From the IMG/VR virus record IMGVR_UViG_3300018036_000032, positions 1 to 35,427 of that record: 35,427 nucleotides of DNA; one strand, 5' to 3'. This document shows positions 2,571-32,709 of the stretch, piece by piece (positions within the stretch are counted from its first letter, which is position 1; each line of letters starts with the position of its first letter). The notes under the pieces are model-generated. The model was given only the letters and a program-made list of their open reading frames with translations, had not been told where the DNA came from and did no database searches. The position numbers were made by a program, and so were the translations under genes. The stretch is from a virus.

Positions 2571-3551
2571 ATGAGTGATTTTTTAAAGAAAGAACAAAAG
2601 CCGATGGATGTTCAAGATTTATCTCTTTCATCTCCATCGCAAAAAGCAACACAAGGCCTCGCAGAGCAAATGGGGACTGGTGTATATCATACAGCATTCC
2701 GCGAAGGCTATCCTCAATATGATGCCGCTCCAAGCGAGAAAGTGATTGCCGGCGATAATAATGCTTTTGTTATTATTGGAAGGGATCGTCCATATTCTAT
2801 GGCCTCTGGTAAAGGTGCTTACGGCGGCAAATGTGGAAGAATTCACTTGATTGCTGGTCTTGCTTCTGCATCAGAATTGAAAGAAGATGCTCAAACGGGG
2901 CCAAACTTAATCACAGATGCAGCAACGGTTTACATTTCACAGAGAACCAGCATTGACGAATATTTCGGAATCCCAGAAGGAACTAACGTTCCGGCAAAAG
3001 ATAAGTCAGGCATCGGGATCAAAGCGGATCACGTTCGGATCATTGGCCGAGAACACGTTAAAATTTATGCTGGATCAGCACAAAACATTTCAAAACCAAA
3101 CAAAGCAGTCCGCAATATCCTTGGTCTCAATAGAGAAAGAAACTCAAAAGGCGGAGATATTACATCGAGAGGCCGCATCGATCTAATCGCTGATAACTAC
3201 AACGATATACAGCCAGCGGTAAAAGGACAGAATCTTGTTGAGTTTCTACAAAGATTATTGGAAATCATCCGTGAAATATATTCCGAGATTAATGATATTA
3301 ATTCAAGAACTTTAGAAATCAATAATGCGCTCCTTCTTCATCAGCACCCAGAGTTCTTGGGAATTGGAGGAACACCGGGGCCTGCTCTAACATTTAAGAT
3401 TTTAAGCAATTATCCTCCACATTTCAAGTCGTCAATCAATTCGTTTGTATCCAACATTAATTTGGCGATTGACGAAATCAATTATCTACAAACAGATCTT
3501 CCTGCTCTTGGAGCAAGACATATTTTATCAGACAGCGTGTATCTAACATGA
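2571..3551 (+). CDS. Tail-spike / central-spike-like virion protein
   Basis: The 326-residue product has beta-rich, repeat-like strands of similar shape: NAFVIIGRDRP, GRIHLIAGLAS, ADHVRIIGREHVKIYAG and SRGRIDLIADN. This pattern is typical of beta-helical or stacked spike proteins beneath baseplates. The segment TVYISQRTSIDEYFGIPEGT matches a pattern I remember from marine phage tail proteins. The C-terminal third is helical (EFLQRLLEIIREIYSEINDI) and carries a histidine pair (LLLHQHPEF), like the C-terminal trimer region of some spike proteins. It follows the hub-like gene by one base, and its stop overlaps the next start. Together the two genes could do the job that T4 packs into the single gp5 protein. 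No metal-binding spike apex is evident, so the exact role is inferred. Confidence 0.6.
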   Translation: MSDFLKKEQKPMDVQDLSLSSPSQKATQGLAEQMGTGVYHTAFREGYPQYDAAPSEKVIAGDNNAFVIIGRDRPYSMASGKGAYGGKCGRIHLIAGLASASELKEDAQTGPNLITDAATVYISQRTSIDEYFGIPEGTNVPAKDKSGIGIKADHVRIIGREHVKIYAGSAQNISKPNKAVRNILGLNRERNSKGGDITSRGRIDLIADNYNDIQPAVKGQNLVEFLQRLLEIIREIYSEINDINSRTLEINNALLLHQHPEFLGIGGTPGPALTFKILSNYPPHFKSSINSFVSNINLAIDEINYLQTDLPALGARHILSDSVYLT

Positions 3552-6500
3552 GTACAGAAAACAAATCCCAATTCCTCGATATGCAAAAAGACATTTGCGA
3601 AGTTGTTCCTCCACCGGAAGAGCCTCCCAAGATTTGTCCAACTTGCGTTCCTAATCCTGATGCGATTGTCCCAAACTGGTGGGAAACTGAAGAACCTTAT
3701 CTGGATGAAAGAGAATGCTTGTATTCCGTAACCGTGGCTATCAACGACGATGGGCAGGTTTACGATGTTGCGCGTATGACCTCCGAAGGCTGGAAGATAA
3801 AGCAATTAATCGAGACATATAAAAGATTCGGTCTTTTGCAATTGATGAGATTCTATAACAAAGAAATCTCAAATGAAACTCTTTTCGCATTTCCAGAAGA
3901 TCCTGAAAAGTTGGAGAGACTAAACCAAAGAGCAAATAGAAAGATTGAAAATTCAATTCAAGTTCTCGAGCAACAACTTCCAAATGGCTCGTTTAATGTT
4001 TATGGGATTCCCGGACCAATTTTAGAATCATTTGATATCAAAGAAGGTGAGAACTTTAATGCATTTGCAGCCGAGTTGTATGTAAAAGCAAACGATTATT
4101 ACATTTCCTCATTTCAGACATCGACAGGTGGAGAGCCCATTTTAGTTCGTGTGACGATTCCTGCTTTTGTATTTGATAGAATCCCACAAGCCAAGCCTGT
4201 TCAAGAAGCGGACATCCAGAGCGAAGTCGTCCTCGATGGGCTCAACTTAAAAGCGCAGATTCAAAGATTAAAGATCGCTATGGGCATATTCGGAAAGTAT
4301 CAGGCTTATTGGTGGCAAACCGAGAAAGGCCGACTAGTCTTTCAAAAAACCTTAACTCCCGATCAGGATTTAACCGTCGAAGACGCTTTCGGCAGTTCGC
4401 AAGGCATCAGCGATTTCTATTGCCGGACATATCCAAACAAATTGGATTCCTTTGTTGATCGTCTCGAAACTTTGATCGAATCGCAGACCAACTTTAGATT
4501 TAGAAGAATACGTACTCCAAGAGCAGTACAATTTATCAAAATTTCTTTCAACAACTCCGATCCCGAGAGACCATATCAAATTAAAAAGATCGAAGTCAAA
4601 GGCGAAGGTTGCGAATACGAAAGAGTCCCATTGGGATCAATCAAGAAACTAACTGTTGATGGAAGTGATAAATTCATTTATCCTTTCAATGATCAAACTA
4701 TTATGGGCTATGTCGCAAACATAAATGATATTGATACCGATCTTCAAGCAAAAGAAACCCCACCTTGGGTTGACTTCTGTTTAGAATATACGTTCCCTCC
4801 GCTTGATATTGAATACGGAAAAGCCAACCAACTCACAGCAGAGTTTGGCCAACCAGAAACAATCTTGGGATGTGTTATTGATAATCTTGGAGGCGAGGAT
4901 GCTATTAGAGATTTCTTTTTAGAAACCGTTATGACGTTCTTTGATTCCATTGCTTACAAATTTAATCAAAATAACTGTAAAGCCTTGGCTGGAAACTATG
5001 TTTCGAGAGAAGAACAATTGGCTCAAGGAGCCCAACAAACAGCCGGAGAAGAACGAAGATCACAGAGAGGCGATACAACACAAGTAGACAGTCAGATACA
5101 GGCGCTTCAAAAGGAAATTACCGATATAAATGGAATAATAAAGCATTACGAAGATCAAATAAAATTTATAGAAAGCCGTTTAGCAAAGCCAGATGAACTG
5201 GAGCAACCTTATTTGCAACAACTCGAACAAGATAAAATTCGCTCCCAAGAACAGATAGCCGCATCAGAAGAACTTATTGGATTAAACAAACAAAAAATCC
5301 AGAAATTAGAACAACAAAGAAGAGATTTGAATAACCCTTCTGGCGCCAATAGAAGAGAAGCGCAAGAGCGCACAGCAGCACAACGAGAACAAGACAGAAA
5401 TGTTAGAGCCGAAGGTAAAAAAGAAAAAATACCTTTTAGAGAAACACTAAATCTAGGCTTAAGGAACACTAGACAATATAACCAAGCCGTTAGAGAATCC
5501 CAAAGAGAAAGTCAAGGCTCTCGGCGTGAAGCGGCACTTGATCGAAGACAACAAAGAGGCGAGGCATTGGGTAGTGATCCGTATGTTTCAGCCGCAAGAA
5601 ATATTGTATCAGAACAGTTCCCGTTTGAGGATTCGTTGATCCAATTATTCTTAACAGAAGAAGAGTTCGAACAGTACGGCCTCGCCGGCTTTGATTTTGT
5701 TGGAGGACTCAAGGATTTATCCAATCGCGGAGAAGGCGAGAACAAAAAACAAAGATTAAAGAATTTTATTTCTAGACTCGGCATTTGCGGAATCAATAAG
5801 TTAGGCCAGCGAGTTGTACAGTGTCTCCTTGGTGGCGTTGATCTTGATACCGGACTTCGTTCAATTATTAGAGCGGCTCTTAATAATATGGCTCCAAATT
5901 ATATGGAGAAATTGCTTCTTGGTCTTGATCCTAGAAAACAAGAAGAAATCAGAAAACAAGTCGAAGCGATTTTTAGAAATATGCCTGCACCTTGGGAAAC
6001 TGGATATCGTCCCGGCTCCAAGTCTGGTTTCTCTGGCGAGACAAGATCTAGAGCATATGAAGATGCTAGCGACTCAATAGAGACTTCTATTTCCATTTTA
6101 GAAACAGATTTGGAATCTTTAAATCAACTACGAAATAATAATTTTAATTCCAACGATCAATATGGTCGCTCTAGAGTTGATGAAATTTTGGAACTATCAA
6201 CAGAACAATATGCTATTGATCAAAAGTTTATGGACCAATTGAGAGTTGAGATTTCAAAAATAGAATCATTTCCAACAACATATCAGAGAATTAGCCAAGC
6301 ATTTCAGGCTGTAACAAATACAGTTGATCTTGAATTGGCTTCGTTAATTGCTGAACAGACACAAGTACAACTTGATGCTTCAAATGTAAAGTTTGGTAGT
6401 TGGAACAACCTCTCTGAAGAAGAGCAAGAGGAATTAATAGCAAGAGAAAGAGAAGTAGCAGAGCAGTTCGCTAATGGAGCAAACGCAGAACAGAGAGTCA

Positions 6501-9500
6501 ATCAAGGCTCCGTTGGTAAGGCACTCGGCTCTGTTCAGGAACTTGTATTCGAGGCTTATGTCGATGCTATTATGGACAATGTCGAGATTCAGGAATTATT
6601 CTCAATTTTAGATAAAGTTCCCGGTGCTCGCTTGGTTGCTCGACTAATCGCTTCTTTTGATTGCCCAAATATTCATTTTATTCATCCTCCGATCAAGTCT
6701 TTCTTGGGATCTTTAACCTTCGATCAATGTTTAGATCGCGGATCTCTTACTTTGCCCAGAATACCTCGTATTCCTAAATTGAGAACAATAAAGGAATATC
6801 TGTTCGAGTTATTAAAAGATATTTTCAGACAGGCTTTCGAGCAACTAGTAACTTCAATTATATCAGCCATAACGCTAAAGTTTCTAATAACACTTGAAAA
6901 TGCTCTTTGTAAGGCGCTTGAGACGGTAGGCCAGTTTGCGGCCGAAGCAGTAAAAGGCCCAGAGGCGAACTTTAATTCTGTTCTGAATGAAGTTATTTGC
7001 GGCGGTAATAGCGATGATGAAGAGATGGATGCAATCACCTCAAGTTTATTAACATCGATAGGCATAACGCCACAAAGATTAAACGAATTAGCAGAACAAG
7101 AAATTACACCAGCCAGCATTCAAGGGCAACACAAACAAGTTATGGATGCGATCTCGAACGTTGTTTCAGGCAAAGAATTAAAGAAACTTCTTGTAGCCAA
7201 TCCCGGCGAAATGGAAGACGATGTATTAAGAAGAATCTCTAGAACTGTTGCGGACAGATTTCCAGCATTCGGAATCTTTTTCGATACACCCGCCAAGGTG
7301 GAATCAGTATTCGGGGCTCTTGGTAATTTTATAACTCCCGAACAGCGTCAATTGATCAGAGACAATCTCGCAAACCCTCAAATCGAACCACAAGATAATA
7401 CAAGTATCTGTTTGACTCAAGAGCAATTGCAAGCATTTGAGGACCAACAAAGAGGGGTTTTGAGAAATTCTGGTCTCGATGATGATACGATTGATGAGAT
7501 TCTTCAAAAAAACAAAGATAATAATAAACAAAGGCTTGACGATGTTGTCGGTATTATGGCCAAAGGCCCCGCAAATCTAATTAAAGACGCTCTAGACAAG
7601 GCTCTACTCCCAGAAGAGTGCGGCAATCCAAACGGAATCGCTAAATTTGAAACACCAGAGATCGCAAAACAAAACGATATCTTGACCGAAGGTGTATTTC
7701 GCAGCCTACAAGCAACCTACAGTAGAGATATGATTGGTAAAAGAGACTCGTTTCTCGATAATGTTCTCGCCGATACAAGCGACCTTCAATTGAGAAGGCA
7801 CGAAAGAAGAACAAATAGCGAATCTTTTTATATTGATTACGCCAACTCTGCCGAAGATTGGGAAGCGAAGAAGAAACGCTTCGAGAAGACAGCCGCCGGA
7901 GATTTCTATTTTGGTTTGTTCTCGCAGGAAGAGCCGAAGGGCGTATTCCCCGATACCGTCGCAATCCTTCTCAAAGAACAACTTGAGGCCCAAACATTTG
8001 ATACAAACTACTCTCTTGTTCCAAAGCAATTACCATCTCGCGAAACAAGATCAGTAAGAGTTGGTTTGCTTGGAAGACAACAAGATATAACAGTACCAAA
8101 GCCATATCTTAAAAGCCCAGACATGAAACTAACTTTTGATAACGGTGATGATTCGCAAACAGAATTAGATGTTGATCTTATGTACACGACATTCAAAAAT
8201 CAACAAGTAAACATCGAAAGAGACTTTGGCTACAAGATTGATATTTCCAGAACCGAAATAACAACCACAACTGACGAAGAAGGCGAAGAAGGACCCGAAA
8301 GGTTCGTTGGTTATAGAAAGTATGCTATATTCTCCCCTCAAACGATTGATCAATCGGCTTCTGTTGTCTTGGCGCAATATGATGTCGACGAGGATACGCT
8401 CAATCAAAAGCAAGTTCCTTATCAATCTTATTTACTTTCGAATCTTGTTAATTCTAGATTACAGGACGCATCACACACACCTGTAAACGTCAAGCAATTC
8501 ACAACAACATTTTATAACAAATTTACAAAGAAAACATATGACGTTTTGTCCAAAGGTCTTTTAACCCAACTCGACGGAACTGTCTCTGAAGGTTTCAACT
8601 TCGGATACGATGCCGATCCACTAACACCAGACGATCTTCTTTATGTAAATCCCGAATCTGATCCAAACGACGATTCAACTTGGGAATATACATATGAAAA
8701 CGAAGATGCTGTTCTTGGCCGATCCGCAACAAAGAATCCACGAGTCTTTTTCTTGGATCCGAACGTATACGGTGGCTCCTATGTTAATCCGCCAATTTAC
8801 GTTGAACCAGCAACCTATACCGGCTGGATGGGCCTTGCTCAAATGCTTGTCCCTGAAATCGACGGTTGCAAGCCAAAGCGAACTGACTTTATCGATATAA
8901 AGCAAATCTCCGAGAAAGTAAGACAAATTCAAACATCGATCCCACAAGACCCAAGATTAAGCGAGGACCCTGAATGTGTTAAAAGAATACCGTTTGATAA
9001 AATTTCTGATGCTTCTACGCTTGCTTTTTTAGATGGAACAGTCACGGCAACTGTTAGGACCTATGCCTCCGAAGCAATGCTAAAATCTATGCCTATGCTA
9101 GCATTTTTGATGTATAAAGATACAAATTACGACAACGGGTTTGCTCAAATGATCGTCAAAGAAATGGAAGATGGCTTAACTGATGAGACCGCTTTGTTCG
9201 GAGGACGCATTGAAGGTTATACTTATTGGCTGTTATTCTTGGAACAAGCGGTCCAATCTGTTGTTCGTAAGTTAGACAGCGGAGAAATGGAGAACACCCC
9301 AGAGATCGAAGAAGCGAGAAAAGCAATCAACGACGCGCAAATTGCTTACAAATACCCACAGAAGTCGGATCTCGAAGCATTTAAAGAATTTAATGAGTTG
9401 GATCACGTCGCAGCAAAAGCGGCTGGTACGGGTGCCGCTATAACACTTGGCATGTTTGCTCTTGCTTTTCCAGCCATCGTGGCGACCGGCGTCGTTATTG

Positions 9501-10843
9501 CTACTCCCGTTGCTATCGTTGGAAGCCTATTATCTCTCAATGCATTGAGATTTGCTAGCAAAATCGGAATGATCGAAAGCGTCAAAAGAGAATCCAAAGT
9601 TCTACTCAAGGCGCTCATTAACCACGAACTCAAGTTTCTATCCTCCAAACTTGAAGGAGACTCACGCTTTCGCCCTTATGTTAGCGACTTTACTAAATAC
9701 TGTCTTTCACTTCCTAACTTTATGTACGGCTCTACGCTTAAGGCCGGCCTTATGGATGTTGAAAACCCCGAAGTTGCTGGTGAAAGTAATATCGACTATG
9801 GCGATGTGGCCGAAGTTATTTCTAATCCAACGTTGACTCCTTTATTAGCGACGCTTGGAATAAGCCAAGAACAGGCCACACAACTGTCCGAATCAGGCGG
9901 CCTAGTTATCGAAAAATACATCCGAACAATTGATAAGCCCCGCCAAGGACCGCAATTACAAAATGAGACCAGAGAAGACCAACAAGAGCCACGATATTTA
10001 CAAATTGTTCGTCAAAGACCCGAGACCCTAAAAGGTGTTTGCAATATTACCGAGTTCCGACAATGGGCCCAAGGTGTAAAAGAGCAACTACCAGCCGAAT
10101 TGAATATTTCAGATTTATTTGGAGATGCTTCAATTACAGCAGGAAATAGCGGCGAATACGAAGGTTCTATCGGAATCAAATTTGGTTTAAGAATAAGCCT
10201 TCTTCCAAATGACGCTTTAAGAGATTCTCTATCTAGCGGCAATTGGGACCCTGAAGTTGTTGCGAGAGAAAAGAGTTATCGCTTCCAAGACACAATCGCA
10301 ATCCCACTAGTTTCGTATGAGAGAGATATAAAAGATGTTAAATTTGTTGATTTAGATTTTACAGACTCGAATTTAGGAGAAGACCTCAAATGTTATGTCG
10401 ATAAGATTGCTTTAGAGCCAGAGTATCGCTTTGTTATGGAATATCTTCTCGGATTAAAAAGGGTTCCAACAATTCTCACCATCTATATGGCTCAAAACTT
10501 TGTTTCAGCCGTAGGAAAAAGTGAAAGCGAAAGAGATGAGGATGCTAAATTGCTTGGCTTCAATATCACCAACGATGACTGGAAGACAGAAATATTGGCG
10601 GACACAAAGAGAGAATGCCGTAGATTGTTTGCTTCTTTCTATCGTTCTGATGATTTTGATCCGCAAGACGATAATGATGCTTCGTTAAGAGAATTGGTTT
10701 CACGAATTCTTCCCGGTGTCTTCGGCGTTAACCGTGGCCTTCTTCATTGGCTCCGTCGTCGTCGCTTGAGAGACCGGCCATTTGATAAAGATGGAAATTT
10801 CTGTAAAAATGCCTTCCAACGGCTATTTAGTTCTGACGAATAG
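3548..10843 (+). CDS. Giant (2431-residue) virion structural protein, probably baseplate
   Basis: This single unbroken frame is the longest gene in the window. The N-terminus has a Pro/Cys-rich stretch (PPPEEPPKICPTC). Residues about 485-640 are Gln/Glu/Arg-rich and coiled-coil-like, and a second helical, acidic region spans about 830-990. Hydrophobic helices occur near 1080-1150 (LVTSIISAITLKFL). A 38-residue hydrophobic, glycine-rich segment at about 1956-2000 includes AITLGMFALAFPAIVATGVV and resembles a membrane hairpin. Several cysteine-bearing blocks (FDCPNIHFIHPP) look like conserved structural motifs. I recognise no enzyme motif. Its place between spike-like and gp25/gp6-like genes suggests a large wedge, hub or tape-measure-like component. 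It starts at ATG 3548, overlapping the previous stop as ATGA. Confidence 0.75.
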   Translation: MSTENKSQFLDMQKDICEVVPPPEEPPKICPTCVPNPDAIVPNWWETEEPYLDERECLYSVTVAINDDGQVYDVARMTSEGWKIKQLIETYKRFGLLQLMRFYNKEISNETLFAFPEDPEKLERLNQRANRKIENSIQVLEQQLPNGSFNVYGIPGPILESFDIKEGENFNAFAAELYVKANDYYISSFQTSTGGEPILVRVTIPAFVFDRIPQAKPVQEADIQSEVVLDGLNLKAQIQRLKIAMGIFGKYQAYWWQTEKGRLVFQKTLTPDQDLTVEDAFGSSQGISDFYCRTYPNKLDSFVDRLETLIESQTNFRFRRIRTPRAVQFIKISFNNSDPERPYQIKKIEVKGEGCEYERVPLGSIKKLTVDGSDKFIYPFNDQTIMGYVANINDIDTDLQAKETPPWVDFCLEYTFPPLDIEYGKANQLTAEFGQPETILGCVIDNLGGEDAIRDFFLETVMTFFDSIAYKFNQNNCKALAGNYVSREEQLAQGAQQTAGEERRSQRGDTTQVDSQIQALQKEITDINGIIKHYEDQIKFIESRLAKPDELEQPYLQQLEQDKIRSQEQIAASEELIGLNKQKIQKLEQQRRDLNNPSGANRREAQERTAAQREQDRNVRAEGKKEKIPFRETLNLGLRNTRQYNQAVRESQRESQGSRREAALDRRQQRGEALGSDPYVSAARNIVSEQFPFEDSLIQLFLTEEEFEQYGLAGFDFVGGLKDLSNRGEGENKKQRLKNFISRLGICGINKLGQRVVQCLLGGVDLDTGLRSIIRAALNNMAPNYMEKLLLGLDPRKQEEIRKQVEAIFRNMPAPWETGYRPGSKSGFSGETRSRAYEDASDSIETSISILETDLESLNQLRNNNFNSNDQYGRSRVDEILELSTEQYAIDQKFMDQLRVEISKIESFPTTYQRISQAFQAVTNTVDLELASLIAEQTQVQLDASNVKFGSWNNLSEEEQEELIAREREVAEQFANGANAEQRVNQGSVGKALGSVQELVFEAYVDAIMDNVEIQELFSILDKVPGARLVARLIASFDCPNIHFIHPPIKSFLGSLTFDQCLDRGSLTLPRIPRIPKLRTIKEYLFELLKDIFRQAFEQLVTSIISAITLKFLITLENALCKALETVGQFAAEAVKGPEANFNSVLNEVICGGNSDDEEMDAITSSLLTSIGITPQRLNELAEQEITPASIQGQHKQVMDAISNVVSGKELKKLLVANPGEMEDDVLRRISRTVADRFPAFGIFFDTPAKVESVFGALGNFITPEQRQLIRDNLANPQIEPQDNTSICLTQEQLQAFEDQQRGVLRNSGLDDDTIDEILQKNKDNNKQRLDDVVGIMAKGPANLIKDALDKALLPEECGNPNGIAKFETPEIAKQNDILTEGVFRSLQATYSRDMIGKRDSFLDNVLADTSDLQLRRHERRTNSESFYIDYANSAEDWEAKKKRFEKTAAGDFYFGLFSQEEPKGVFPDTVAILLKEQLEAQTFDTNYSLVPKQLPSRETRSVRVGLLGRQQDITVPKPYLKSPDMKLTFDNGDDSQTELDVDLMYTTFKNQQVNIERDFGYKIDISRTEITTTTDEEGEEGPERFVGYRKYAIFSPQTIDQSASVVLAQYDVDEDTLNQKQVPYQSYLLSNLVNSRLQDASHTPVNVKQFTTTFYNKFTKKTYDVLSKGLLTQLDGTVSEGFNFGYDADPLTPDDLLYVNPESDPNDDSTWEYTYENEDAVLGRSATKNPRVFFLDPNVYGGSYVNPPIYVEPATYTGWMGLAQMLVPEIDGCKPKRTDFIDIKQISEKVRQIQTSIPQDPRLSEDPECVKRIPFDKISDASTLAFLDGTVTATVRTYASEAMLKSMPMLAFLMYKDTNYDNGFAQMIVKEMEDGLTDETALFGGRIEGYTYWLLFLEQAVQSVVRKLDSGEMENTPEIEEARKAINDAQIAYKYPQKSDLEAFKEFNELDHVAAKAAGTGAAITLGMFALAFPAIVATGVVIATPVAIVGSLLSLNALRFASKIGMIESVKRESKVLLKALINHELKFLSSKLEGDSRFRPYVSDFTKYCLSLPNFMYGSTLKAGLMDVENPEVAGESNIDYGDVAEVISNPTLTPLLATLGISQEQATQLSESGGLVIEKYIRTIDKPRQGPQLQNETREDQQEPRYLQIVRQRPETLKGVCNITEFRQWAQGVKEQLPAELNISDLFGDASITAGNSGEYEGSIGIKFGLRISLLPNDALRDSLSSGNWDPEVVAREKSYRFQDTIAIPLVSYERDIKDVKFVDLDFTDSNLGEDLKCYVDKIALEPEYRFVMEYLLGLKRVPTILTIYMAQNFVSAVGKSESERDEDAKLLGFNITNDDWKTEILADTKRECRRLFASFYRSDDFDPQDDNDASLRELVSRILPGVFGVNRGLLHWLRRRRLRDRPFDKDGNFCKNAFQRLFSSDE

Positions 10844-10852
10844 GGATTGGTT

Positions 10853-11284
10853 ATGGCTACAAGAATCGCAAGAACAGCACAAGAATTTATGGAAGAATTA
10901 TCTCCATATGCCGATATTGCTTATGGGCCTTCGCTGGAAGACCCAACAGATCCGGATTTAGATTTATCTGACCCTTTGGCCGAGATCAAACAAAACTTTA
11001 GAAATCTCCTCTTAACAAGGCCCGGAGAGAAGTTGAATGATCCGGACTTTGGAATAGGAATTCAAAATTTTCTGTTTGAAATGAACACTGTTGCGACAAA
11101 ACAACAAATCAGTTCAAGGATTAAATCACAAGCAATTACTTATCTATCGTCAATTAACATTACGAAGATTGATTTGAGCACTTTTGAAAACAATGAGAAC
11201 GGTGTTTATGTGGCGATAACCTACTATGTTCCACAAATCAATCAACAGGATAGAATAGTAGTAGATTTCCCTGAAAATAGATAA
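10853..11284 (+). CDS. gp25: gp25-like baseplate wedge protein
   Basis: The 143-residue product matches the gp25 / GPW family, the small wedge proteins (TssE-like in type VI secretion) that help start sheath assembly. The family signature is plain: IKQNFRNLLLTRPGEKLNDP with the Arg-Pro-Gly-Glu turn at about residues 57-60, then DFGIGIQNFLFEMN. The C-terminal part alternates beta strands (VYVAITYYVPQ; DRIVVDF), as expected. T4 gp25 is 132 residues, so the length fits. I place the start at ATG 10853 and not at the in-frame TTG at 10847, because AGGG at 10842-10845 is 7 bases upstream. The gp6-like partner follows after 33 bases; in T4, gp25 and gp6 touch in the wedge. Confidence 0.92.
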   Translation: MATRIARTAQEFMEELSPYADIAYGPSLEDPTDPDLDLSDPLAEIKQNFRNLLLTRPGEKLNDPDFGIGIQNFLFEMNTVATKQQISSRIKSQAITYLSSINITKIDLSTFENNENGVYVAITYYVPQINQQDRIVVDFPENR

Positions 11285-11317: not shown

Positions 11318-13117
11318 ATGCCAAAGAAAAAAATCGTCCCTATTAAATACACAAGTAGGGATTTTGAGAGCATCAAAGAAGATCTAATCGATCATGCTAA
11401 AAGATACTATCCAACAAGAATAAATGACTTTTCAAAGGCATCATTTACTTCTTTTGTGATCGATTCGGTTGCTTATGCCGGAGACATCCTGTCTTATTAC
11501 CTTGATTATCAAGTTAATGAATCTTTTTTAGACTCGAGTATAGAATTCGAAAATATTCGTAAACACGCCAAAAGCCTTGGCTATCGCTTTTCTGGAATCG
11601 CCAACTCTTATGGAACAGCCGCTTTCTTTGTTCTTGTCCCAGCCAACTCTGCTGGAACTGCTCCGGACTCCTCATTATATCCAACCCTCAAAAGAGGATC
11701 AGAATTTAAAGCATCCAACGGAGCAAACTTTATTTTGACGGAAGACGTAAAGTTCAGCGACCCAAAGAACGAAGTTGTCGCTGCTAGATTCGATAATGCT
11801 ACTGGAGCCACAACATTTTTCGCTATTAGAGCGTATGGGCAAGTTGTTTCCGGAAGATTCCAGAGAACAACAATCGACTTAACAAATCAAACATTTACAA
11901 GATTTCGTAAGGTATTGATCGGAGGCCCGAATGTCTCTGAAATTTTCTCTGTTGTGGATACCGAAGGTAATGAATATTACGAAGTCGATTACCTTTCGCA
12001 AGAAACAGTCTATCTCGAGACCACAAATAGAACAGCCGCTAGCGATGGCGTTCGCAGTATTCTCAAGCCTTATGTGGCTCCACGAAGATTTGTCGTAGAA
12101 CAAGATGATACCGGCACATATCTTCAATTTGGCTACGGTTCCGAAGAAGACGACACAACCGGCTTGGTCGAGCCTTCAAAAGTCGCCATCGAGATGTACG
12201 GAAAAAGATATATCAGCGATCGTTCTTTTGATCCAACGCAATTATTAAGAACAAACAAACTTGGTGTTTCTCCATCCGGAACTAAATTGACCGTTGTTTA
12301 CAAGGTTAACGATTTGACCTCGACCAACGTTCCGGCAAATGGTCTCAATAGCGTCCGCACATCAACGCTAACATTTCAAAACGAGCAAGTGCTCAATGCA
12401 TCCCTAACCGCTGCTGTTCGCAATTCTCTTGAAGTCAATAACACCGAGCCGATCGTCGGTGATACCTCCGGAACTTCAAACGAAGAACTTAAAGTTCAAG
12501 CAAAGAATTACTACGCAACACAAAACCGTGCTGTAACCAAGCAAGATTACGAGGCCCTCTGCTACAATATGCCGAAAAAGTTCGGAACGGTTAAGAGAGT
12601 GAATGTCGTCAATGACCCAAGTGCAACCAACCGTCGAATGGCTCTTTATGTAATCTCCGAGGACAACAATAATAAATTAACAACCGCAAACGATACAATC
12701 AAGAACAATCTTAAAGTATGGCTCGGTCGTTATAAAATGCTTAATGATGTTATCGATATTATTGACGCAAAGGTAGTAAATTTTGGAATCGATTTTGAAA
12801 TTAGCGTCACAAGAGACTCTAATCCAAATGACGTGATTAATAGAGTCATTGCTAAACTTATTTCAGAATACAGCGACACTTTTTATATTGGAGAGCCAAT
12901 TTACGTTTCTTCTTTATACAACATCATCAATAAAGTAAGCGGCGTATCCGACGTTAAGAAAATTAAAATTTACAACAAGTCGGGCGGAAACTACTCTGCG
13001 ACATCAATCAACTTTGACGATTTGAAATCTAGAGACGGGACTTTCTACAAAGCGCCAAAAAATGTAATTTTCGAACTCAAGTTCCCAAATGCCGATATTA
13101 GAGGAGTGGCTAAATAA
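11318..13117 (+). CDS. gp6: gp6-like baseplate wedge protein (baseplate J family)
   Basis: The 599-residue product is close in length to T4 gp6 (660). The opening YTSRDFESIKEDLIDHAKRY, then ASFTSFVIDSVAYAGDILSY and YLDYQVNESFLDSS, are hallmark gp6 sequences. The middle part carries the baseplate J-like core (LQFGYGSEED around residue 270). After about residue 405 comes AVTKQDYEALCYNMP, the usual entry to the C-terminal domains, ending in SDVKKIKIYNKSGG. Two copies of gp6 per wedge form the inner iris ring that opens on contraction, contacting gp7, gp25 and gp53. The ribosome site AAGAGGG lies 7 bases before the ATG. Its stop overlaps the next start as TAATG, so the next protein is made in coupled fashion. 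Confidence 0.92.
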   Translation: MPKKKIVPIKYTSRDFESIKEDLIDHAKRYYPTRINDFSKASFTSFVIDSVAYAGDILSYYLDYQVNESFLDSSIEFENIRKHAKSLGYRFSGIANSYGTAAFFVLVPANSAGTAPDSSLYPTLKRGSEFKASNGANFILTEDVKFSDPKNEVVAARFDNATGATTFFAIRAYGQVVSGRFQRTTIDLTNQTFTRFRKVLIGGPNVSEIFSVVDTEGNEYYEVDYLSQETVYLETTNRTAASDGVRSILKPYVAPRRFVVEQDDTGTYLQFGYGSEEDDTTGLVEPSKVAIEMYGKRYISDRSFDPTQLLRTNKLGVSPSGTKLTVVYKVNDLTSTNVPANGLNSVRTSTLTFQNEQVLNASLTAAVRNSLEVNNTEPIVGDTSGTSNEELKVQAKNYYATQNRAVTKQDYEALCYNMPKKFGTVKRVNVVNDPSATNRRMALYVISEDNNNKLTTANDTIKNNLKVWLGRYKMLNDVIDIIDAKVVNFGIDFEISVTRDSNPNDVINRVIAKLISEYSDTFYIGEPIYVSSLYNIINKVSGVSDVKKIKIYNKSGGNYSATSINFDDLKSRDGTFYKAPKNVIFELKFPNADIRGVAK

Positions 13118-14544
13118 TGGCTATCAAAAGATATTTTGCTAACAAAGATAACACCATAACAGATGCTTTTCGCTCCGATCTAGTAACAAGAGGAACGGGG
13201 TCGAATATGGGAGCCTCGGACATTCTTGAGGTTTTTTCAATTTACGGCCAAGCAAATTCAACTTCCGTTGAAAAAACACGATTCCTTATCGAATTTCCTA
13301 TGTCTGGTATCGAGGCGGATAGAACTTCAAATGTCTTACCTGCCGCTGGAAATGTTGAGTTTTATCTAAAACTTTACAACGCAAAGCACCCTTTTACGCT
13401 TCCATCGCAATACGATTTAAATGTTGTGGCCGTTTCTTCATCATGGCAGGAAGGCGTCGGCTTGGATATGGAAGAATACAGAGATCTTACATACGATCAA
13501 CTCGGCTCTAACTGGATAAAAAGATCGGGCTCTACGTCTTGGGATACTGAAGGTGGCGACTTCCACGCTTTACCGGTATTCTCGGCATCCTTTCCTGTTG
13601 GAAACGAAGACCTTGAAATCAATGTTACTTCGCTTGTTGAAGAATGGCTCGATGGTACCAAAGATAATTACGGTTTTGCTATCAAACTTCCTGATGCGCT
13701 CGAGACCGGAGAACTATCGTATTATACAAAAAGATTCTTTGGACGCGGAACAGGTGATTGGTTCAGAAAGCCAGTTCTCGAAGCACGTTGGGATTCAGCA
13801 ATAAAAGATGATAGAGGCAACTTCTACACCTCATCTTCGCTAGCACCAGCCGCAGACAACCTTAACACAATCTATCTTTATAACTTTGTCCGAGGTCGAT
13901 TGACCAATATTCCAAATATCGGAACAGGCGAGATTTATGTTGATCTTTATTCAACATTGGGCGGCTCTCCACTTACGCAATGTATCGACACACCAGCCAC
14001 AGGCGGTTGGGTCTCAACAGGAATTTATTCTGCTTCTGTCTGTATTGACTCATCAGAAACCACTTTATATGATGTATGGTATTCCGGAAGCACGCAATAT
14101 CACACTGGAACGATTTCGACTGATAACTTTGCTGCTTCAAATTATTCTACGACGAATCGCTATGTCTTGAGCATAACGAATATGCAAGAAGAATACTATC
14201 CTGAACAAACAGCAAGATTTAGATTCTTTTCTCGAGAAAAAGGATGGTCACCAAACATTTATACCGTTGCTCAATCAACGGTTCCAAATTTGATTTTTGA
14301 GAGCGCCTCCTATCAGATTACTCGTGTTGTTGACGATTATATCGTAGTTGACTACGGAACCGGTAGTGTGAATCATACAATGTTATCTTATGATGTCTCG
14401 GGCAATTACTTCGATCTTGATATGTCTATGCTGGAAGAAGGTTATATGTATGGAATACATATTTCCATTTATGATGATGCTATCAAATCTTATGTTGAGC
14501 AACCAGTAGAGTTTAAGTTCAAGGTTAACAAGTATGAGTATTAA
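13117..14544 (+). CDS. Virion protein with DNRLRE/CBM96-like domain
   Basis: The 475-residue protein has an N-terminal ~200-residue region that reads like a DNRLRE (CBM96-type) beta-sandwich. It shows strand TRFLIEFPMSGI (residues 54-65), VEFYLKLYNAKH, the usual tryptophan turn SSSWQEGVGLDMEEY, NWIKRSGSTSWDTEGGDF, then LEINVTSLVEEWLDGTKDN followed by YGFAIKLPDA. In known proteins this fold binds polysaccharide or acts as an adhesion module. The rest is beta-rich, with Ser/Thr/Tyr-rich strands and no motif I know. It starts at ATG 13117 inside the gp6 stop, with GAGGAG at 13101-13106, and overlaps the next gene by 11 bases. A baseplate-bound adhesion or connector role is likely; the ligand is unknown. 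Confidence 0.7.
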   Translation: MAIKRYFANKDNTITDAFRSDLVTRGTGSNMGASDILEVFSIYGQANSTSVEKTRFLIEFPMSGIEADRTSNVLPAAGNVEFYLKLYNAKHPFTLPSQYDLNVVAVSSSWQEGVGLDMEEYRDLTYDQLGSNWIKRSGSTSWDTEGGDFHALPVFSASFPVGNEDLEINVTSLVEEWLDGTKDNYGFAIKLPDALETGELSYYTKRFFGRGTGDWFRKPVLEARWDSAIKDDRGNFYTSSSLAPAADNLNTIYLYNFVRGRLTNIPNIGTGEIYVDLYSTLGGSPLTQCIDTPATGGWVSTGIYSASVCIDSSETTLYDVWYSGSTQYHTGTISTDNFAASNYSTTNRYVLSITNMQEEYYPEQTARFRFFSREKGWSPNIYTVAQSTVPNLIFESASYQITRVVDDYIVVDYGTGSVNHTMLSYDVSGNYFDLDMSMLEEGYMYGIHISIYDDAIKSYVEQPVEFKFKVNKYEY

Positions 14545-17500
14545 GGATCTCTTTTCAAAATCTAAAGTCGCAGTTTACGAATCAGCCGAATCCGCAAGTG
14601 TCGATATAGAATCAGCCGATTTTCTCAAAACAAAAGTTGAGGAAAACAACACATTTGTACCTTTTACTGACTTCTCTGATCCGTCACAGTTCATCAAGTT
14701 TGGTTCAGCCGAACTTTATTACGAGAACTCGATTAAAAGAATTTATCAACAATATCCGTATGATGGTTCGGGTAAAGAGAAACTTGAATTCCAATTATCC
14801 TCGTCTTATCTTGATCGATGGATATTCGAAAACAAGTATCCCAAAAGCACCGGCTATGCTACGTTAACAGCCGGAGGATATGGCTCGAGCGTAATCACTG
14901 ATGGCTACGGTCTTTCTTCGGATCTCGAATACATTTATGCCGCCGGTGGGCTTCATACGGCCTCTGCCGGAATGCAAAGTGGAGAACTTTTTAAAAACTT
15001 TGATAGTTCCATCAAATATGATGCCGACAAGAATAGAACTCAAAATTTCAGAATTAATCCCGTTGCCGGAACAACAGTCGAATTTTGGCTCAAGAAAGAC
15101 AACTTTATTCCTTCCTCGACAGAAAAAGAGGTCATCCTTGACTTATGGAACGGCCAAGCCTCTTCGTCTGCTGATTATGGTCGATTAACGATTTATCTTT
15201 CTGCTTCCACAGATGGTTTGGATACTGTTCGTGCAACGCTTCAAAATGGAACAACAGGCTTCGCAGATCAAAGTCTTGCGGCCTCCTCATTCACAACAGC
15301 CTCCCTTGCTGATGGGAACTGGCACCATTATGCTGTCTCTTTCTTATCGCAATCCGCTGGAATCAAGACATTCTTTTATGTTGATGGTGGTTTGAATAAC
15401 GAGCAAACGATTGGCTCTGCCGGAATTAATGAACTGTCCGGAAGAATCAATGCTTACATCGGTGCTCTCCAAACATCTCCATCTGGTTCTGCTGCGGCTC
15501 AATATGCTGGTAAGTTAAGCGGTTCTATCGACGAATTCCGTTTCTGGAAAACTCGGAGAACATCAAAACAAATAAATCTTAAATGGTATCGCCCTGTTGA
15601 CGGTGGGGCCAATACAGAAGACAATAACACTTCTCTTGGCTGCTATTTCAAGTTCAATGAAGGGATCGTTGGCTCTTCCATTGACTCAACCGTTCTTGAT
15701 TATTCAGGCCGCCTAACCAATGGTGCGTGGACCGGCTATGCTTCTGGTGCTCGTTCTACAGGCTCTTGTTTCGTTTCTGCCGGTGTTCTTTCTTCCGAGC
15801 CAGCAGATCCAATCATTTATAGCAACCATCCATCAGTAGTTTCGCTTCAAAGCGAGATGCAGACATCTGGTAGCGAGTATGACCAAGTCAACTCGACTTT
15901 GCTTTACGATAAACTTCCTCAATTCATGAGAGATGACGATGAAAGCAATGGCCTTAACATCAAGAATCTTTATCAGATCGTCTCGTCTTATTTCGATACC
16001 ATCTATGCTCAAACCAAAGTTCTTCCCGAGATCACAAATAAAAACTATTTATCGTCCTCGACCAAACCGCTTCCATTCGCAAATCGACTTCTTGAATCTC
16101 GTGGATTTGCAACAAGCGAACTGTTCGTTGATACCGAGATCTTGGAATTCTACGGCGACAACGATTACGAAAACAAGAAGTTCGAGGATAACGTTAATGA
16201 TATTAAGAACTTAATTTATCACAACATCTACAATAACCTCGATTACATCTATAAAACGAAAGGCTCCGAAAAGTCATTTCGCAATCTCCTCCGCTGTTTC
16301 GGTATTGACGACGAACTTGTGAAGTTCAATGTCTACACCGACGGAGGCACTCACTACTTTAATGATAATTTCAAAGATACAAGCATTACAGCAAAGTACA
16401 TCAATCACAATAATCCTTCGTACTTTGGCGCTTCTGTCTATCAAACATCGTCAGCGAATAACTCGCTGTCTTACATTTCTGGGTCCAGTGCCGAGAAGTT
16501 AGAAAAATACAACGCTTTCACCTTTGAGGTGGATACAATTATTCCAGAGAAACTTCCGGCCACCGACCCTGCTTTCTTCGATACTCGTTTCCTTTCGGCT
16601 TCGATTGGTGGTTTTCACCAAGCCACAGGTTCAGGATACGACTGGGCGACCAATGAGATAGCAAGCGCTCAAATATACCTCGTTAGAGATGAATTAGAGT
16701 CAAATAGAGCAAAGTTTTTGCTAACAAATCAAGACGGCACCCTAACCCTTACCTCATCGTATTATGATGAAATTTACGACAATGAGCGATGGATTTTGGC
16801 TGCACGTGTAAAGCCAACCGCCTATCCAATCATCGGATCAATGCTTACGGCTTCAAATCCAACATACGAGATCTCATTCTACGGTGTGAATCATCAATTT
16901 GGCGAGGTCAAAAATGAATTTTCTGTCTCCACCACAATCGATTACACCTCGGGATCGTCTTATCTTTCCGAGCCGAAACGAGTCTATGTTGGCGCTCACA
17001 GAACAAACTTCACAGGTTCGGTGCTAGAAAACACCGATGTTCAAATTGGTGCTTGTCGTTTCTGGATGGATTACCTCACAGATACGGATCTCAAAGGTCA
17101 TTCAAAGGACATTACCAACCTTGGCGTGGACAACTCAACAAGAAACGGAACTCTTTTCGCAACAAACTTGACCAATGTTCCAATTCCAAGATCAGATACG
17201 CTCGCCCTTAACTGGGACTTTGATCTTGTGGAATCCTCGTCTGCCGGAGGTTCTTTCTCCGTTGTGGATGTTTCTTCCGGCTCACTCGATACGATCTACG
17301 GATGGATTGATAACATTATTCGCCGAGAGCACGAGGCTACATCAATCGGTTTTGGCTCATCCGCAACTTCATTTATCGACAAAGAATTGGTTTACGCAAG
17401 CAAGAAGGAGTTGCCCGAGATCTCGGTTACCTCTGATAAAGTGTTTATCAAAGATGATCTTCAAAAATTCTTCATCAAAGATGATGATGTAAGCGATAAT

Positions 17501-20095
17501 TTTTACTCTCTCGAGAAGTCAATGTACCAAATCATCTCGGAAGAGATGCTTTCAATGTTCGCATCGGCCATCGAGTTCAATAATCTTATGGGACAAGCGG
17601 TTGACCGATACCGCCATCGCTACAAGCATTTAGACAAGATGCGACAATTGTTCTTCCAAAGAATTGAATCGGATATGGACTTTGATCGTTTCACGGATTA
17701 TTATAAGTGGATTGACTCCGCAATATCCGAGATGATGAACCAACTTTATCCTGCTTCTGTCCGTCATTCGGACTCAATCGCAAACATGGTTGAGAGTCAT
17801 ATTCTCGAGAGAAACAAATATCAGAACAAGTTTCCTATTACAACTCGACTTTCTTCGACCGAAGGTTCTGCTCGAGGTGTTGGTGAACTAACTTACAATT
17901 GGAAGTTCGGCCATGCTCCCACAGGATCCGAGGAAAATGAAAATTGTCTCTGGAACAAAGAGCGAAAAGAACGCACCGATATTCCAGATCGCGAGACAAT
18001 AAAAGAAGTTATCAATAATAGAAATAGCGTCGTTGCGCCGAAGTTATTCAAAACCGACGGAACATCGTACGAGGGCTCAACCTTCGCAATCAACAGATTA
18101 AGCAAGCCATACAAAGAAAGCATCAGTCTCAACAATTCGATTCACGGTGGTATCAATTACAACGAAGGCAAAGACCGAGATTTGGTTTATAATGCGACCT
18201 ACATTCACGGCCCTGTTTCAAAACAATATCCCAAAGGTATCCCGCAAAACGTTATGGTCGTTGGTGTCGCCGAGGGCCAAAGCACAGACGCCTTTATTGA
18301 TTGTGTAGATGTCGAGGATCCAAACGAAAAAAGAAAGTGGAGATTCTCTGCTGTTCTTGGTCGTTATGCTACTGGCTACAATCCTACTGCTCGAACGGGC
18401 AAAGATTACGAATACAAGGTCAAATCTTCTCTTTACTGGCCTGCTAATCTGGTTTCCGGAACAGTTAATAGCGGCTACAACAAGCAGGTTGTTGAGAAAT
18501 TTAAGAGCGGTTCAATCATAACAAACCTTCATTCAGATACTTTCTCTCCGACAAACGACATCGGTATGCAAGGCCCATTCACCGAGGCTTGGGTTGGAGG
18601 TCACCAATCTCGTCATGTTGAAATAAATAAAGACAAAGGCACCGATGGAATCGCAACTCCGGCAACAAAGGCAACAGCAACAATAACGATTGTGCAAACG
18701 GTATCCAACAATGATACAATAACTTTTGGGGATGGAATCACTGGCCCGTTCACTTATACATATAAAACTGTTCCTACTCCCGGTACTATCCCGACAGGTT
18801 TTACCGCAGCAGGATCCAGAAACAATACAAAGTCCTTTCTAGAAGCAAGATTTAATGTTTCGATCACAATAAATGGAAATGATCTTGAAATAACAAATAA
18901 CAATGCCGGTACTGTAGGTAATGTAACGTTAGGTGAAACTTTTACATATATTTTCAATAGTGTTAGCGGATTCACTGGTGGAGTTAACGCAACATACAAA
19001 ACTCGCAACAATCTTGACGATCAATACACTCGCGAAGAAGCGTGGAGACTTTTATTAAAAGAATGCGCTGATGGAACTTGGAATAGTGGCTCCTTCTCTG
19101 GTTCTAATGACGGTGCAATGGGCTTTGTTGGTCCGGACTACGGTGGCCCTTATCCGGACTACACAAGAAAGTATGCTATCCGTTATCGCGACGAAAGAAC
19201 AAAGCGGCCTCTAAATGTTAGAAATATCCGAACAACAACCGGCTCTGCCGTTCATGGAAACTTTGTTGAGAATTATGAAGTTCTACACACATTCGGCCGC
19301 AAAGAGAACGATCAAGGCTGGCGAAGAACCGAAGGAGATATTTTAAATCCGTTTTTCGATGGGCTTCCGACAACGACGCAAGAAGCATCTTTGATTGGTG
19401 TTGCTACTGGTTCTGGTGGTAATGTTGTTATGAACTTTAACAATAATAATAGGATCCCGCTAGATATAAAAGACCAGCAAGCATTCGACGCAAGTTCTCG
19501 TGGAAAGACAGTTATCGCAACTCGCTTCTCTGCTCCCGGTGGCTTTGAGACAATGTCCGAGGTTTACCTCGATGTTCCATCAAAAGAATACTCGGCTTAT
19601 AACGCAATGCCTTTCCGGAATCTTTCTGTTTTGGGTTCTGGTTCGGGCGAAGCAGGAACGATAAGAGTCAATAGTCACGCAAATAGAAGAGAAGGCTTAA
19701 GGACTCTTCTTGCGAGACACTCCGGAAAATTTGGTATTGACTCACAATACGGTGCTGTTACATCCGAGAACTATAATGCCGAGGCCTCATTTAATAAAAT
19801 AAACAGAAATACAAGAGTCCATGTGGAAACTGGCTCACTAATTATAACAAGCAGTTTTGATAACTTTAATGTATCTCGACCTATCCCCTCGCAAGATTAT
19901 GGGTATTCGTGGGTCACGGCGTCTCTTGGAGAAGAATTGTCTGTTAGAACGGAAGGACAACAGTTAGTATTCGGTTACTGGCCGAAAGATGGGATTTTGA
20001 GCGCATCTGCTAATGTATCGTGGAGAAGGAACGGCTTTGATTCAGCGGTTAACTTTCCCACTGGTTCCGCCGAGTTTAGAGGTTTTATAATATGA
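14534..20095 (+). CDS. 1853-residue LamG-domain virion protein (fibre/adhesin-like)
   Basis: The N-terminal ~165 residues are unassigned. Residues about 175-400 form a clear LamG/concanavalin-like domain: TVEFWLKKD, DGNWHHYAVSF, FFYVDGG and SGSIDEFRFWKTRRTSKQI. A second, weaker LamG-like region covers about 655-870 (FTFEVDTI, RWILAARV, IGACRFWMDYLTDTDL). Between and after them are helical and tyrosine/aspartate-rich parts (residues 470-600 and 980-1100). Residues about 1370-1490 look like an extra beta domain inserted into the backbone. The C-terminal part (VGPDYGGPYPDY, RPLNVRNIRTTTGS, VIATRFSAPGGFE, YSWVTASLGEE) matches patterns I recall from large marine-phage virion proteins. It is likely a long baseplate-attached fibre or adhesin. 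The start is at ATG 14534; the stop overlaps the next start as ATGA. Confidence 0.75.
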   Translation: MSIKDLFSKSKVAVYESAESASVDIESADFLKTKVEENNTFVPFTDFSDPSQFIKFGSAELYYENSIKRIYQQYPYDGSGKEKLEFQLSSSYLDRWIFENKYPKSTGYATLTAGGYGSSVITDGYGLSSDLEYIYAAGGLHTASAGMQSGELFKNFDSSIKYDADKNRTQNFRINPVAGTTVEFWLKKDNFIPSSTEKEVILDLWNGQASSSADYGRLTIYLSASTDGLDTVRATLQNGTTGFADQSLAASSFTTASLADGNWHHYAVSFLSQSAGIKTFFYVDGGLNNEQTIGSAGINELSGRINAYIGALQTSPSGSAAAQYAGKLSGSIDEFRFWKTRRTSKQINLKWYRPVDGGANTEDNNTSLGCYFKFNEGIVGSSIDSTVLDYSGRLTNGAWTGYASGARSTGSCFVSAGVLSSEPADPIIYSNHPSVVSLQSEMQTSGSEYDQVNSTLLYDKLPQFMRDDDESNGLNIKNLYQIVSSYFDTIYAQTKVLPEITNKNYLSSSTKPLPFANRLLESRGFATSELFVDTEILEFYGDNDYENKKFEDNVNDIKNLIYHNIYNNLDYIYKTKGSEKSFRNLLRCFGIDDELVKFNVYTDGGTHYFNDNFKDTSITAKYINHNNPSYFGASVYQTSSANNSLSYISGSSAEKLEKYNAFTFEVDTIIPEKLPATDPAFFDTRFLSASIGGFHQATGSGYDWATNEIASAQIYLVRDELESNRAKFLLTNQDGTLTLTSSYYDEIYDNERWILAARVKPTAYPIIGSMLTASNPTYEISFYGVNHQFGEVKNEFSVSTTIDYTSGSSYLSEPKRVYVGAHRTNFTGSVLENTDVQIGACRFWMDYLTDTDLKGHSKDITNLGVDNSTRNGTLFATNLTNVPIPRSDTLALNWDFDLVESSSAGGSFSVVDVSSGSLDTIYGWIDNIIRREHEATSIGFGSSATSFIDKELVYASKKELPEISVTSDKVFIKDDLQKFFIKDDDVSDNFYSLEKSMYQIISEEMLSMFASAIEFNNLMGQAVDRYRHRYKHLDKMRQLFFQRIESDMDFDRFTDYYKWIDSAISEMMNQLYPASVRHSDSIANMVESHILERNKYQNKFPITTRLSSTEGSARGVGELTYNWKFGHAPTGSEENENCLWNKERKERTDIPDRETIKEVINNRNSVVAPKLFKTDGTSYEGSTFAINRLSKPYKESISLNNSIHGGINYNEGKDRDLVYNATYIHGPVSKQYPKGIPQNVMVVGVAEGQSTDAFIDCVDVEDPNEKRKWRFSAVLGRYATGYNPTARTGKDYEYKVKSSLYWPANLVSGTVNSGYNKQVVEKFKSGSIITNLHSDTFSPTNDIGMQGPFTEAWVGGHQSRHVEINKDKGTDGIATPATKATATITIVQTVSNNDTITFGDGITGPFTYTYKTVPTPGTIPTGFTAAGSRNNTKSFLEARFNVSITINGNDLEITNNNAGTVGNVTLGETFTYIFNSVSGFTGGVNATYKTRNNLDDQYTREEAWRLLLKECADGTWNSGSFSGSNDGAMGFVGPDYGGPYPDYTRKYAIRYRDERTKRPLNVRNIRTTTGSAVHGNFVENYEVLHTFGRKENDQGWRRTEGDILNPFFDGLPTTTQEASLIGVATGSGGNVVMNFNNNNRIPLDIKDQQAFDASSRGKTVIATRFSAPGGFETMSEVYLDVPSKEYSAYNAMPFRNLSVLGSGSGEAGTIRVNSHANRREGLRTLLARHSGKFGIDSQYGAVTSENYNAEASFNKINRNTRVHVETGSLIITSSFDNFNVSRPIPSQDYGYSWVTASLGEELSVRTEGQQLVFGYWPKDGILSASANVSWRRNGFDSAVNFPTGSAEFRGFII
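18640..19010 (+). other. Extra beta domain inside the 1853-residue virion protein
   Basis: Residues about 1370-1490 show the pattern ATITIV..NDTITFGDG..FTYTYKT..NNTKSFLEARF..ITINGNDLEITNNNAGTVGNV. It is Thr/Asn/Gly-rich and reads as a self-contained beta sandwich. GC is 112 of 300 bases in 18661-18960, against 108 of 240 just upstream (37% against 45%). The flanking sequence (HQSRHVEINKDKG before, DDQYTREEAWRLL after) reads as continuous backbone. This suggests a module gained by domain insertion, perhaps for surface binding. Confidence 0.5.
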
Positions 20096-31605: not shown

Positions 31606-32703
31606 ATGGCTAGTACCTTTAAAGACATTAAACCAAGCGATCGTGTATCGACAAGAACTCTTCTTCACGAGGCTATTCCTATTACAGGAACAATCGTTTC
31701 AGGAACGTACGGAACTTTTCCCAACGAGGATAATATCAAAAACTTCTCCCACGGCATGTTTCAGTCAGTCTACGATTATCCTTACTTAAGTTCTTCTGCG
31801 AACCATATTTTTGATATTACCTGCGGATATTCTTCTGATAGTCCTCTTTTTGACGCGTCCTACACCCAGAATTCAAAGAAAAGAAACATTTACAACCAAA
31901 TGGCTCAAGTTTGCGTTGGTTACGATATCACCGGGTCCGTTCTTCGTTTTGATGAAGACGGAGACATCTTGGCCGGAGGAGCCAAAATCAAAGAAGGTTA
32001 TTTCTTAAACTTCACAAGACTTCTTGTAAAAGATGAAATCAAAAAAGGTACCGTGTCTTTGACCGTTGGTGTAACTGCTTCTTATTCTGCTCCTATGGGC
32101 GAGACCGTCACTATCACCGATGCTGGCGGCGTTAATGATTATCGAGTGAACTCTCCTGTTGGCGAGTACGGCGTTCTCTATGCTTCAGGTTCTTCTGTTG
32201 ATTCATCTGTAACGTCTTCTACTTACAACGCTGCTCCTTGCGGCCTTGTCTATTACCAAGCCGGCGTTATGGTTCTTTCCGCCTCTCTTTTCAAAGATAT
32301 TACTGATGGCGGTATTTTGACGGACGCAAACGGAACTTCCGAGATGAACACTTCCGGAGAAAGTATTGTTGCTGCGCTCACAGGATCAGAAATCTCTGGT
32401 AATGCCGACAACCTTCGTCATAGAATTCAGAACATCCAATTCAACAATACTGTTGAACTTAACTCAACCATTTACTTCTGCCGTGCGAACCACAACGAGT
32501 TTAATTACTCGTCAAACCCAACATACTTGAGCAGTTCTCAAATCAGAGTTAAGCAAATCTCTTCCGATGAGCCAATCTCTTATATCACAACTGTTGGTCT
32601 TTACTCCGAGAACAACGAACTCCTTGCCGTTGGTAAGTTGTCCGAGCCCCTCAAGAAGACTCCTGCTAACGAATTCACCATCCGTGCGAGACTAGATTAC
32701 TAG
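31606..32703 (+). CDS. Virion-type protein, C-terminal module shared with next gene
   Basis: The 365-residue product is rich in Ser, Thr, Gly and Tyr, a composition typical of fibre or adhesin proteins. Its C-terminal ~60 residues (NYSSNPTYL, then YITTVGLYSENNELLAVGKL and PLKKTPANEFTIRARLDY) closely match the end of the next protein. The N-terminal half has a Pro/Gly-rich start (DIKPSDRVSTRTLLHEAIPI). A central segment (KKGTVSLTVGVTASYSAP) is echoed in the next gene by KKGSVSLKFYVSGTL, so the likeness covers more than the tail. AGGA at 31595-31598 is placed for ATG 31606. The two genes probably arose by duplication and encode related external tail proteins; I cannot name the ligand or partner. 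Confidence 0.7.
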   Translation: MASTFKDIKPSDRVSTRTLLHEAIPITGTIVSGTYGTFPNEDNIKNFSHGMFQSVYDYPYLSSSANHIFDITCGYSSDSPLFDASYTQNSKKRNIYNQMAQVCVGYDITGSVLRFDEDGDILAGGAKIKEGYFLNFTRLLVKDEIKKGTVSLTVGVTASYSAPMGETVTITDAGGVNDYRVNSPVGEYGVLYASGSSVDSSVTSSTYNAAPCGLVYYQAGVMVLSASLFKDITDGGILTDANGTSEMNTSGESIVAALTGSEISGNADNLRHRIQNIQFNNTVELNSTIYFCRANHNEFNYSSNPTYLSSSQIRVKQISSDEPISYITTVGLYSENNELLAVGKLSEPLKKTPANEFTIRARLDY

Positions 32704-32709
32704 TATGCT

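Follow-up and report, generated by a model that had tools for sequence, protein, structure and literature searches.

We analysed a 35,427-base fragment of viral DNA (IMG/VR record IMGVR_UViG_3300018036_000032, positions 1 to 35,427; hereafter, the window), one fifth of which is taken up by a single gene encoding a protein of 2431 residues (hereafter, the giant). On balance, we favour the reading that the giant is a structural protein from the baseplate of a T4-like contractile tail: a cysteine-braced scaffold or collar by which the hub and spike would be tied to the gp25/gp6 ring. It is most likely the extra component that sets apart a large clade of uncultivated viruses. As judged from sequence, its family is a large, previously undescribed superfamily of uncultivated T4-like viruses, in which evolution has kept the cysteines of the giant and not its membrane-like stretch.

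3548–10843, + strand: giant baseplate-region protein, 2431 aa (open frame; full-length homologues at 42–74% identity, superfamily at 21–31%)

The gene is one ATG-started frame with no internal stops, and its start codon shares bases with the stop codon of the upstream spike-like gene (ATGA). Full-length homologues and a gene order that is constant across the superfamily loci establish the frame as genuine, in agreement with an earlier reading made from the letters and open reading frames alone (the sequence-only reading). Pfam gave no match to the giant at E values up to 1, the PHROGs none better than 0.049 and the PDB none by sequence; a profile search of the PDB returned only F-BAR and Peptidase M23 entries (E ≥ 0.015), which we took as chance coiled-coil matches. 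The earlier description of a protein of no recognised family therefore holds for these three libraries, but the protein belongs to a large superfamily that is uncatalogued. Near relatives at 42–74% identity came from scans with the protein and with alignments, and the N-terminal motif CPTC[IV]PNP, turned into a DNA pattern and used as a probe for the superfamily, proved simple and specific (every non-self match encodes a giant or a fragment of one). In a single scan of viral contigs, the profile of residues 1680–1930 found 326 encoding stretches; one scan of prokaryote genome contigs found no homologue. We compared 35 full-length members (20 further loci were taken from long contigs to reach this set), which are 2039–2909 aa long and 21–74% identical to the giant of the window. 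The order spike–giant–gp25–gp6 is present in every superfamily locus in which the flanks are covered, and the gp6 of the members remains 42–71% identical to that of the window whereas the giant drops to 21%. The longest member is L173 (2909 aa), and the giants of L056 and L066 carry an N-terminal extension of ~230–285 residues ahead of the CPTC motif.

The literature searches made turned up no description of the family, and seven members drawn from all parts of the tree, compared by tblastn with 50,697 phage records, returned no homologue of the giant; among the matches listed for L188 were endolysins and other cell-wall proteins, recovered through its peptidoglycan-binding domain. Hundreds of stretches of uncultivated viral DNA encode a giant, and none of the phage, family and structure collections searched contains a relative of it: a gap in the list of T4-like tail parts that no cultured phage searched fills.

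The cysteines are the most strongly conserved feature that we compared. About 19 are conserved, ten of them invariant in 35/35 members, and 17 of the 24 (71%) are each retained by at least 90% of the members, as against 25% of tryptophans, 12% of prolines and 9% of glycines. Cysteines are scarce in the neighbouring proteins of baseplate and tail. Conserved positions lie at both ends of the chain and in the best conserved core:

3635–3658, + strand: N-terminal motif CPTCVPNP, residues 30–37 (C30, C33 and C57 invariant; C17 in 34/35)
8585–9337, + strand: best conserved core in the alignment, residues 1680–1930 (FLDPxxYGGSYxNPxxYxEP ... FLEQ), with C1774 and C1810 inside
10748–10807, + strand: basic C-terminus (WLRRRRLRDRPFDKDGNFCK), containing C2419, whose losses in the member alignment accompany those of C1774

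C1810 is invariant in all members but one. C1774 and C2419 have been lost jointly in three branches (L053/L071, L075 and L189) that share only 20–22% identity with one another, and L189 has also lost 355 together with 477 and 1039 together with 1810, an even number. An apparent loss of C2419 in L181 reflects a frameshifted C-terminus: in this member (contig G022) the end of the giant lies in another frame as a separate 195-aa open reading frame, owing either to sequencing error or to a genuine frameshift. The paired losses suggest that the residues concerned are disulfide partners or ligands of a shared metal site.

The genomic position of the giant is that of a T4-like baseplate module, with homologues of gp25 and gp6 adjoining it. 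The placement between spike-like and wedge genes proposed earlier was borne out:

1409–2569, + strand: DUF2272-matching protein (Pfam PF10030, 3.1e-7, above the family cut-off), likely a cell-wall hydrolase joined to the N-terminal part of a spike
2571–3551, + strand: spike-like protein, directly 5′ of the giant in every superfamily locus that covers this flank
10847–11284, + strand: gp25-like sheath initiator or baseplate wedge subunit (PF04965, 1.7e-10; phrog_261, 5.9e-21)
11318–13117, + strand: gp6-like baseplate wedge subunit (phrog_219, 3.5e-21)

Between the N-terminal motif and the core, the chain contains a helical hairpin and a linker of variable sequence:

5006–5338, + strand: predicted coiled-coil helical hairpin, residues ~487–597 (heptad score and model; length varies among relatives)
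6035–6457, + strand: variable linker, residues ~830–970 (site of PG_binding_1, at ~874, in two other lineages)

Two long coiled coils had been proposed. The first (~504–597) scores above shuffled sequences (heptad score 6.3, against 5.0 for the 95th percentile of shuffle maxima), is modelled at a predicted local distance difference test (pLDDT) score of ~80 and matches helical hairpins; the second (~831–865) scores 4.6, under the 95th percentile of the shuffles, and is not established. Within the linker, Pfam recognizes PG_binding_1 in the L010 group (5.7e-11) and in L188 (9.9e-13), the two domains sitting at an equivalent site that corresponds to window residue ~874, and the domain can be seen by eye in L016. 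Because some lineages carry a peptidoglycan-binding domain at this site, the linker region probably meets the cell wall.

Position, size, the signature of a covalent scaffold and the cell-wall-binding inserts all fit a baseplate scaffold around the spike. In such an arrangement, the giant would be present in the virion as a scaffold or collar that encircles the central spike and links the hub and spike with the gp25/gp6 wedge ring. The ~19 conserved cysteines would brace the chain, either through disulfides that form following release or by binding metal, giving a stiff, pre-stressed tip that must rearrange upon contraction of the sheath. The exposed linker around residue ~874 would meet the cell wall during penetration, beside the hydrolase encoded two genes upstream, so that the scaffold touches peptidoglycan while the spike passes. 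The pairs of co-lost cysteines and the peptidoglycan-binding site offer testable predictions on the readied state of these tails and on their contact with the cell wall.

Several observations weigh against this reading. The presence of the giant in the virion is something that we infer from sequence. Neither profile nor sequence comparison detected similarity to T4 gp5, gp6, gp7, gp8, gp10, gp27, gp29, gp48 or gp53, although the profile comparisons used single T4 sequences, which very distant relatives would escape. AlphaFold2 models of the two halves, built from 10–12 sequences before the deep alignment, reached a mean pLDDT of only 38.7 and 47.2. The peptidoglycan-binding domain is absent from most relatives and from the window protein, in which a Pfam scan did not find PF01471. 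Finally, at 0.99% the cysteine fraction of the giant is near the T4 average of 0.9% (PMC10811340); what marks the protein is the conservation of its cysteines and not their abundance, and they could bind metal instead of forming disulfides.

The alternative that survives best, which we regard as possible but clearly the less probable, is that the giant is no addition to the T4 parts list but a highly diverged or fused protein that functionally replaces known parts of the hub or wedge (gp27, gp53 or gp7). Its place between spike and gp25/gp6 would suit such a role, the PHROG of T4 gp27 was not found in four member contigs, and the window genes were scanned without a match to the PHROGs of gp53 or gp7. 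By contrast, hhalign comparisons with T4 proteins gave probabilities at or near those of shuffled controls, so that membership in the gp7, gp10 or gp8 families finds no support in sequence, and the remote-homology comparison proposed earlier against gp7, gp10 and gp29 detected no relationship by profile; at such distance this lack of similarity to the tested T4 proteins is weak evidence. For gp27 no profile similarity was seen and the models are too poor for a judgement of fold, as they are for fold assignment of the pieces in general; Foldseek and VIA-align comparisons of the N-terminal half with the PDB returned only coiled-coil hairpins, a common arrangement. A further point against replacement is that the close relatives immuto and Mel-JY01 have no detected homologue of the giant.

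A second conserved element lies upstream of the core:

6728–6910, + strand: C1061–C1121 span with a hydrophobic-amphipathic helix (span and hydropathy compared in 35 members)

The span measures 58–65 residues in all members and both of its cysteines are invariant. Its helix is the most hydrophobic place of the giant in 22/35 members and ranges from mildly amphipathic (Kyte–Doolittle (KD) maximum over 19 residues of 1.52 in the window) to transmembrane-like (2.40 in L071). A conserved part that acts on membranes or lines a pore, and becomes exposed as the tip fires, could account for the fixed span between invariant cysteines, for the rank of the helix in those 22 members and for its strongly transmembrane-like character in L053, L071, L047, L057 and L075 (octanol-scale sums of −8 to −15 over 19 residues). 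We consider this unlikely, however: the helix is merely amphipathic in the window and several relatives (KD of 0.97–1.6, octanol sums near zero), a mid-helix position (column 1111) is recurrently lysine-rich, and a core helix of an ordinary multimeric ring would look identical. The better reading is of a helix packed in a core or lining a ring. Improbable to a similar degree is a bolder version of the scaffold, in which about nine disulfides in a chain of 240–320 kDa would form a covalent cage around the spike of these aquatic, uncultured T4-like viruses, unlocked before firing, and the helix would enter or line the path of DNA entry. If true, this would be a previously unknown kind of tail tip in a widespread group of viruses, and unlocking by reduction, cell-wall contact or force would precede tail firing.

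The sequence-only reading had drawn attention to a different hydrophobic segment, near residues 1956–2000, and proposed that it inserts into the host inner membrane. The segment itself is present in the window:

9419–9547, + strand: Gly/Ala-rich hydrophobic segment, residues 1958–2000, lineage-specific (charge-free run of 43; not conserved)

These 43 uncharged residues form the longest such run in the giant (chance expectation, 0.0009 at this composition) and contain its hydropathy maximum (KD of 2.26 over a 19-residue window, residues 1977–1995). That this segment inserts as a hairpin into the inner membrane of the host when DNA enters nevertheless appears very improbable. The aligned site reaches a KD of at least 1.6 in only 5/35 members (the window, L002, L003, L170 and L180) and falls below 1.0 in 29/35, the stretch is shortened in 12/35 to no more than 40 residues, and L002, although 74% identical, already has D, K and E within it; no conserved transmembrane segment of the kind expected of a membrane-inserting entry protein is therefore found. 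As hydrophobicity is lost in most members and the stretch is shortened in 12, the segment is not essential to entry across the family. In sequence terms it is a variable loop that has turned hydrophobic in some lineages, probably a buried, lineage-specific loop or hairpin. The comparisons did not reveal a known, homologous wedge protein in which the equivalent segment is buried, no homology to the T4 baseplate proteins tested having been detected, which leaves room for a membrane or buried role in particular lineages. Gly/Ala-rich hydrophobic stretches occur at differing places by lineage (residue 140 in L062, residue 1168 in L068), and those of L170 and L180 lie at the site of window residues 1958–2000, a pattern like that of a recurring lineage-specific insertion.

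The size of the giant, its coiled coils and its tail-gene neighbours could also suggest a tape measure protein. In a 131-kb member contig (G001), however, an 836-aa gene occupies the tape-measure position, after the sheath gene, two tube genes and a hub gene whose product is 40% identical to the baseplate hub subunit of immuto, and two further member contigs (G007 and G020) show the order sheath–tube–hub and then another large gene (836–984 aa across the member contigs). In these three contigs the sheath, tube, hub and tape-measure genes form a module apart from that of the giant. The annotated tape measure of immuto holds the corresponding place, after sheath, tube and hub. The assignment in G001 is positional, as the phrog_167 match of the 836-aa gene is promiscuous and occurs in all 14 control genomes. 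With this slot occupied by a separate gene in three members, as the earlier placement of the giant outside it implied, and with a conserved cysteine scaffold fitting a tape measure poorly, we set this explanation aside as scarcely credible.

Two further regions of the window were noted. At 14534–20095, a gene conserved 3′ of gp6 encodes an 1853-aa protein with a Laminin_G_3 (LamG) domain and no PHROG match, possibly the counterpart of gp7. At 31606–33888 and in neighbouring positions are paralogous tail-fibre-like genes, the C-terminal domain of which is common to several Mel-JY01 and immuto genes. Two more genes lie upstream of the giant in the window:

387: late-sigma-like gene, upstream of the giant
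Between the late-sigma-like gene (387) and the DUF2272 gene (1409): 96-aa gene, upstream of the giant

The nearest cultured phages, as judged by gp6 and terminase, are the Flavobacterium immuto phages and Microcystis phage Mel-JY01, joined by the metagenomic record LR756508; the window gp6 is 31% identical to those of immuto, Mel-JY01 and LR756508, and by terminase the nearest cultured phages stand at 44–48% identity. Immuto and Mel-JY01 have T4-like capsid and tail modules and share with the window the order late sigma, gene of ~100–130 aa, spike, gp25 and gp6. They differ in that the gap between spike and gp25 holds only small unrelated genes and no giant, and their whole records contain no homologue of its core. 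A profile of residues 982–1180 gave short matches in Mel-JY01 and immuto, all in reading frames with stops, and these were discarded as noise. Directly 5′ of gp25, the slot of the giant is occupied in immuto, Mel-JY01 and LR756508 by a small protein with a charged helix at its start (LIKEAVKEAVREE type; L013:17154-17573, L012:16964-17494 and L014:13892-14563). The protein immuto_155 (L013:16021-17136), which adjoins the spike gene, is annotated as a RecN-like DNA repair ATPase, probably wrongly; it resembles a coiled-coil tail protein with hydrophobic stretches. Mel-JY01 also encodes a 2255-aa hypothetical tail-module protein (WWT39329, L192:6172-12939) that has 2 cysteines, is unmatched by the profile of the giant and is weakly similar to a 250-aa protein 3′ of the tape-measure slot in G001.

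Among characterized systems, T4 gp7 is likewise a large baseplate protein, for which GenBank notes a predicted integral membrane domain, but it shows no profile similarity to the giant. T4 gp53 and gp16 of Anabaena phage A-1(L) are LysM-containing connectors of hub and spike to wedge (PMC10966104), and thus offer a precedent for folds of the peptidoglycan-binding type in a baseplate and for a hub/spike–wedge connection; they are only ~150–200 aa long, and the giant showed no sequence similarity to gp53, which the comparison covered. In AlgoCIS, an enlarged baseplate component cages the spike and carries glycan- or carbohydrate-binding modules (PMC8894135). The spike cage of AlgoCIS, MAC and T6SSiv (Alg11 domain IV) is a plausible functional parallel to the giant, although Alg11 is an extended homologue of a wedge protein, whereas the giant has its own gene next to a gp6 of the ordinary kind, and no shared sequence was detected. 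In phage Milano, disulfides hold the contractile baseplate until they are broken (PMC10811340). Milano resembles the viruses described here in its contractile tail and in structural-protein cysteines that are conserved within the clade; its proven bonds join several proteins of ordinary size and the sheath, whereas the cysteines of the giant lie within one chain and their bonding is putative. By analogy, then, Milano and AlgoCIS are parallels to the giant and not homologues of it—one for a contractile tail held ready by disulfides, the other for a spike caged by an enlarged baseplate component.

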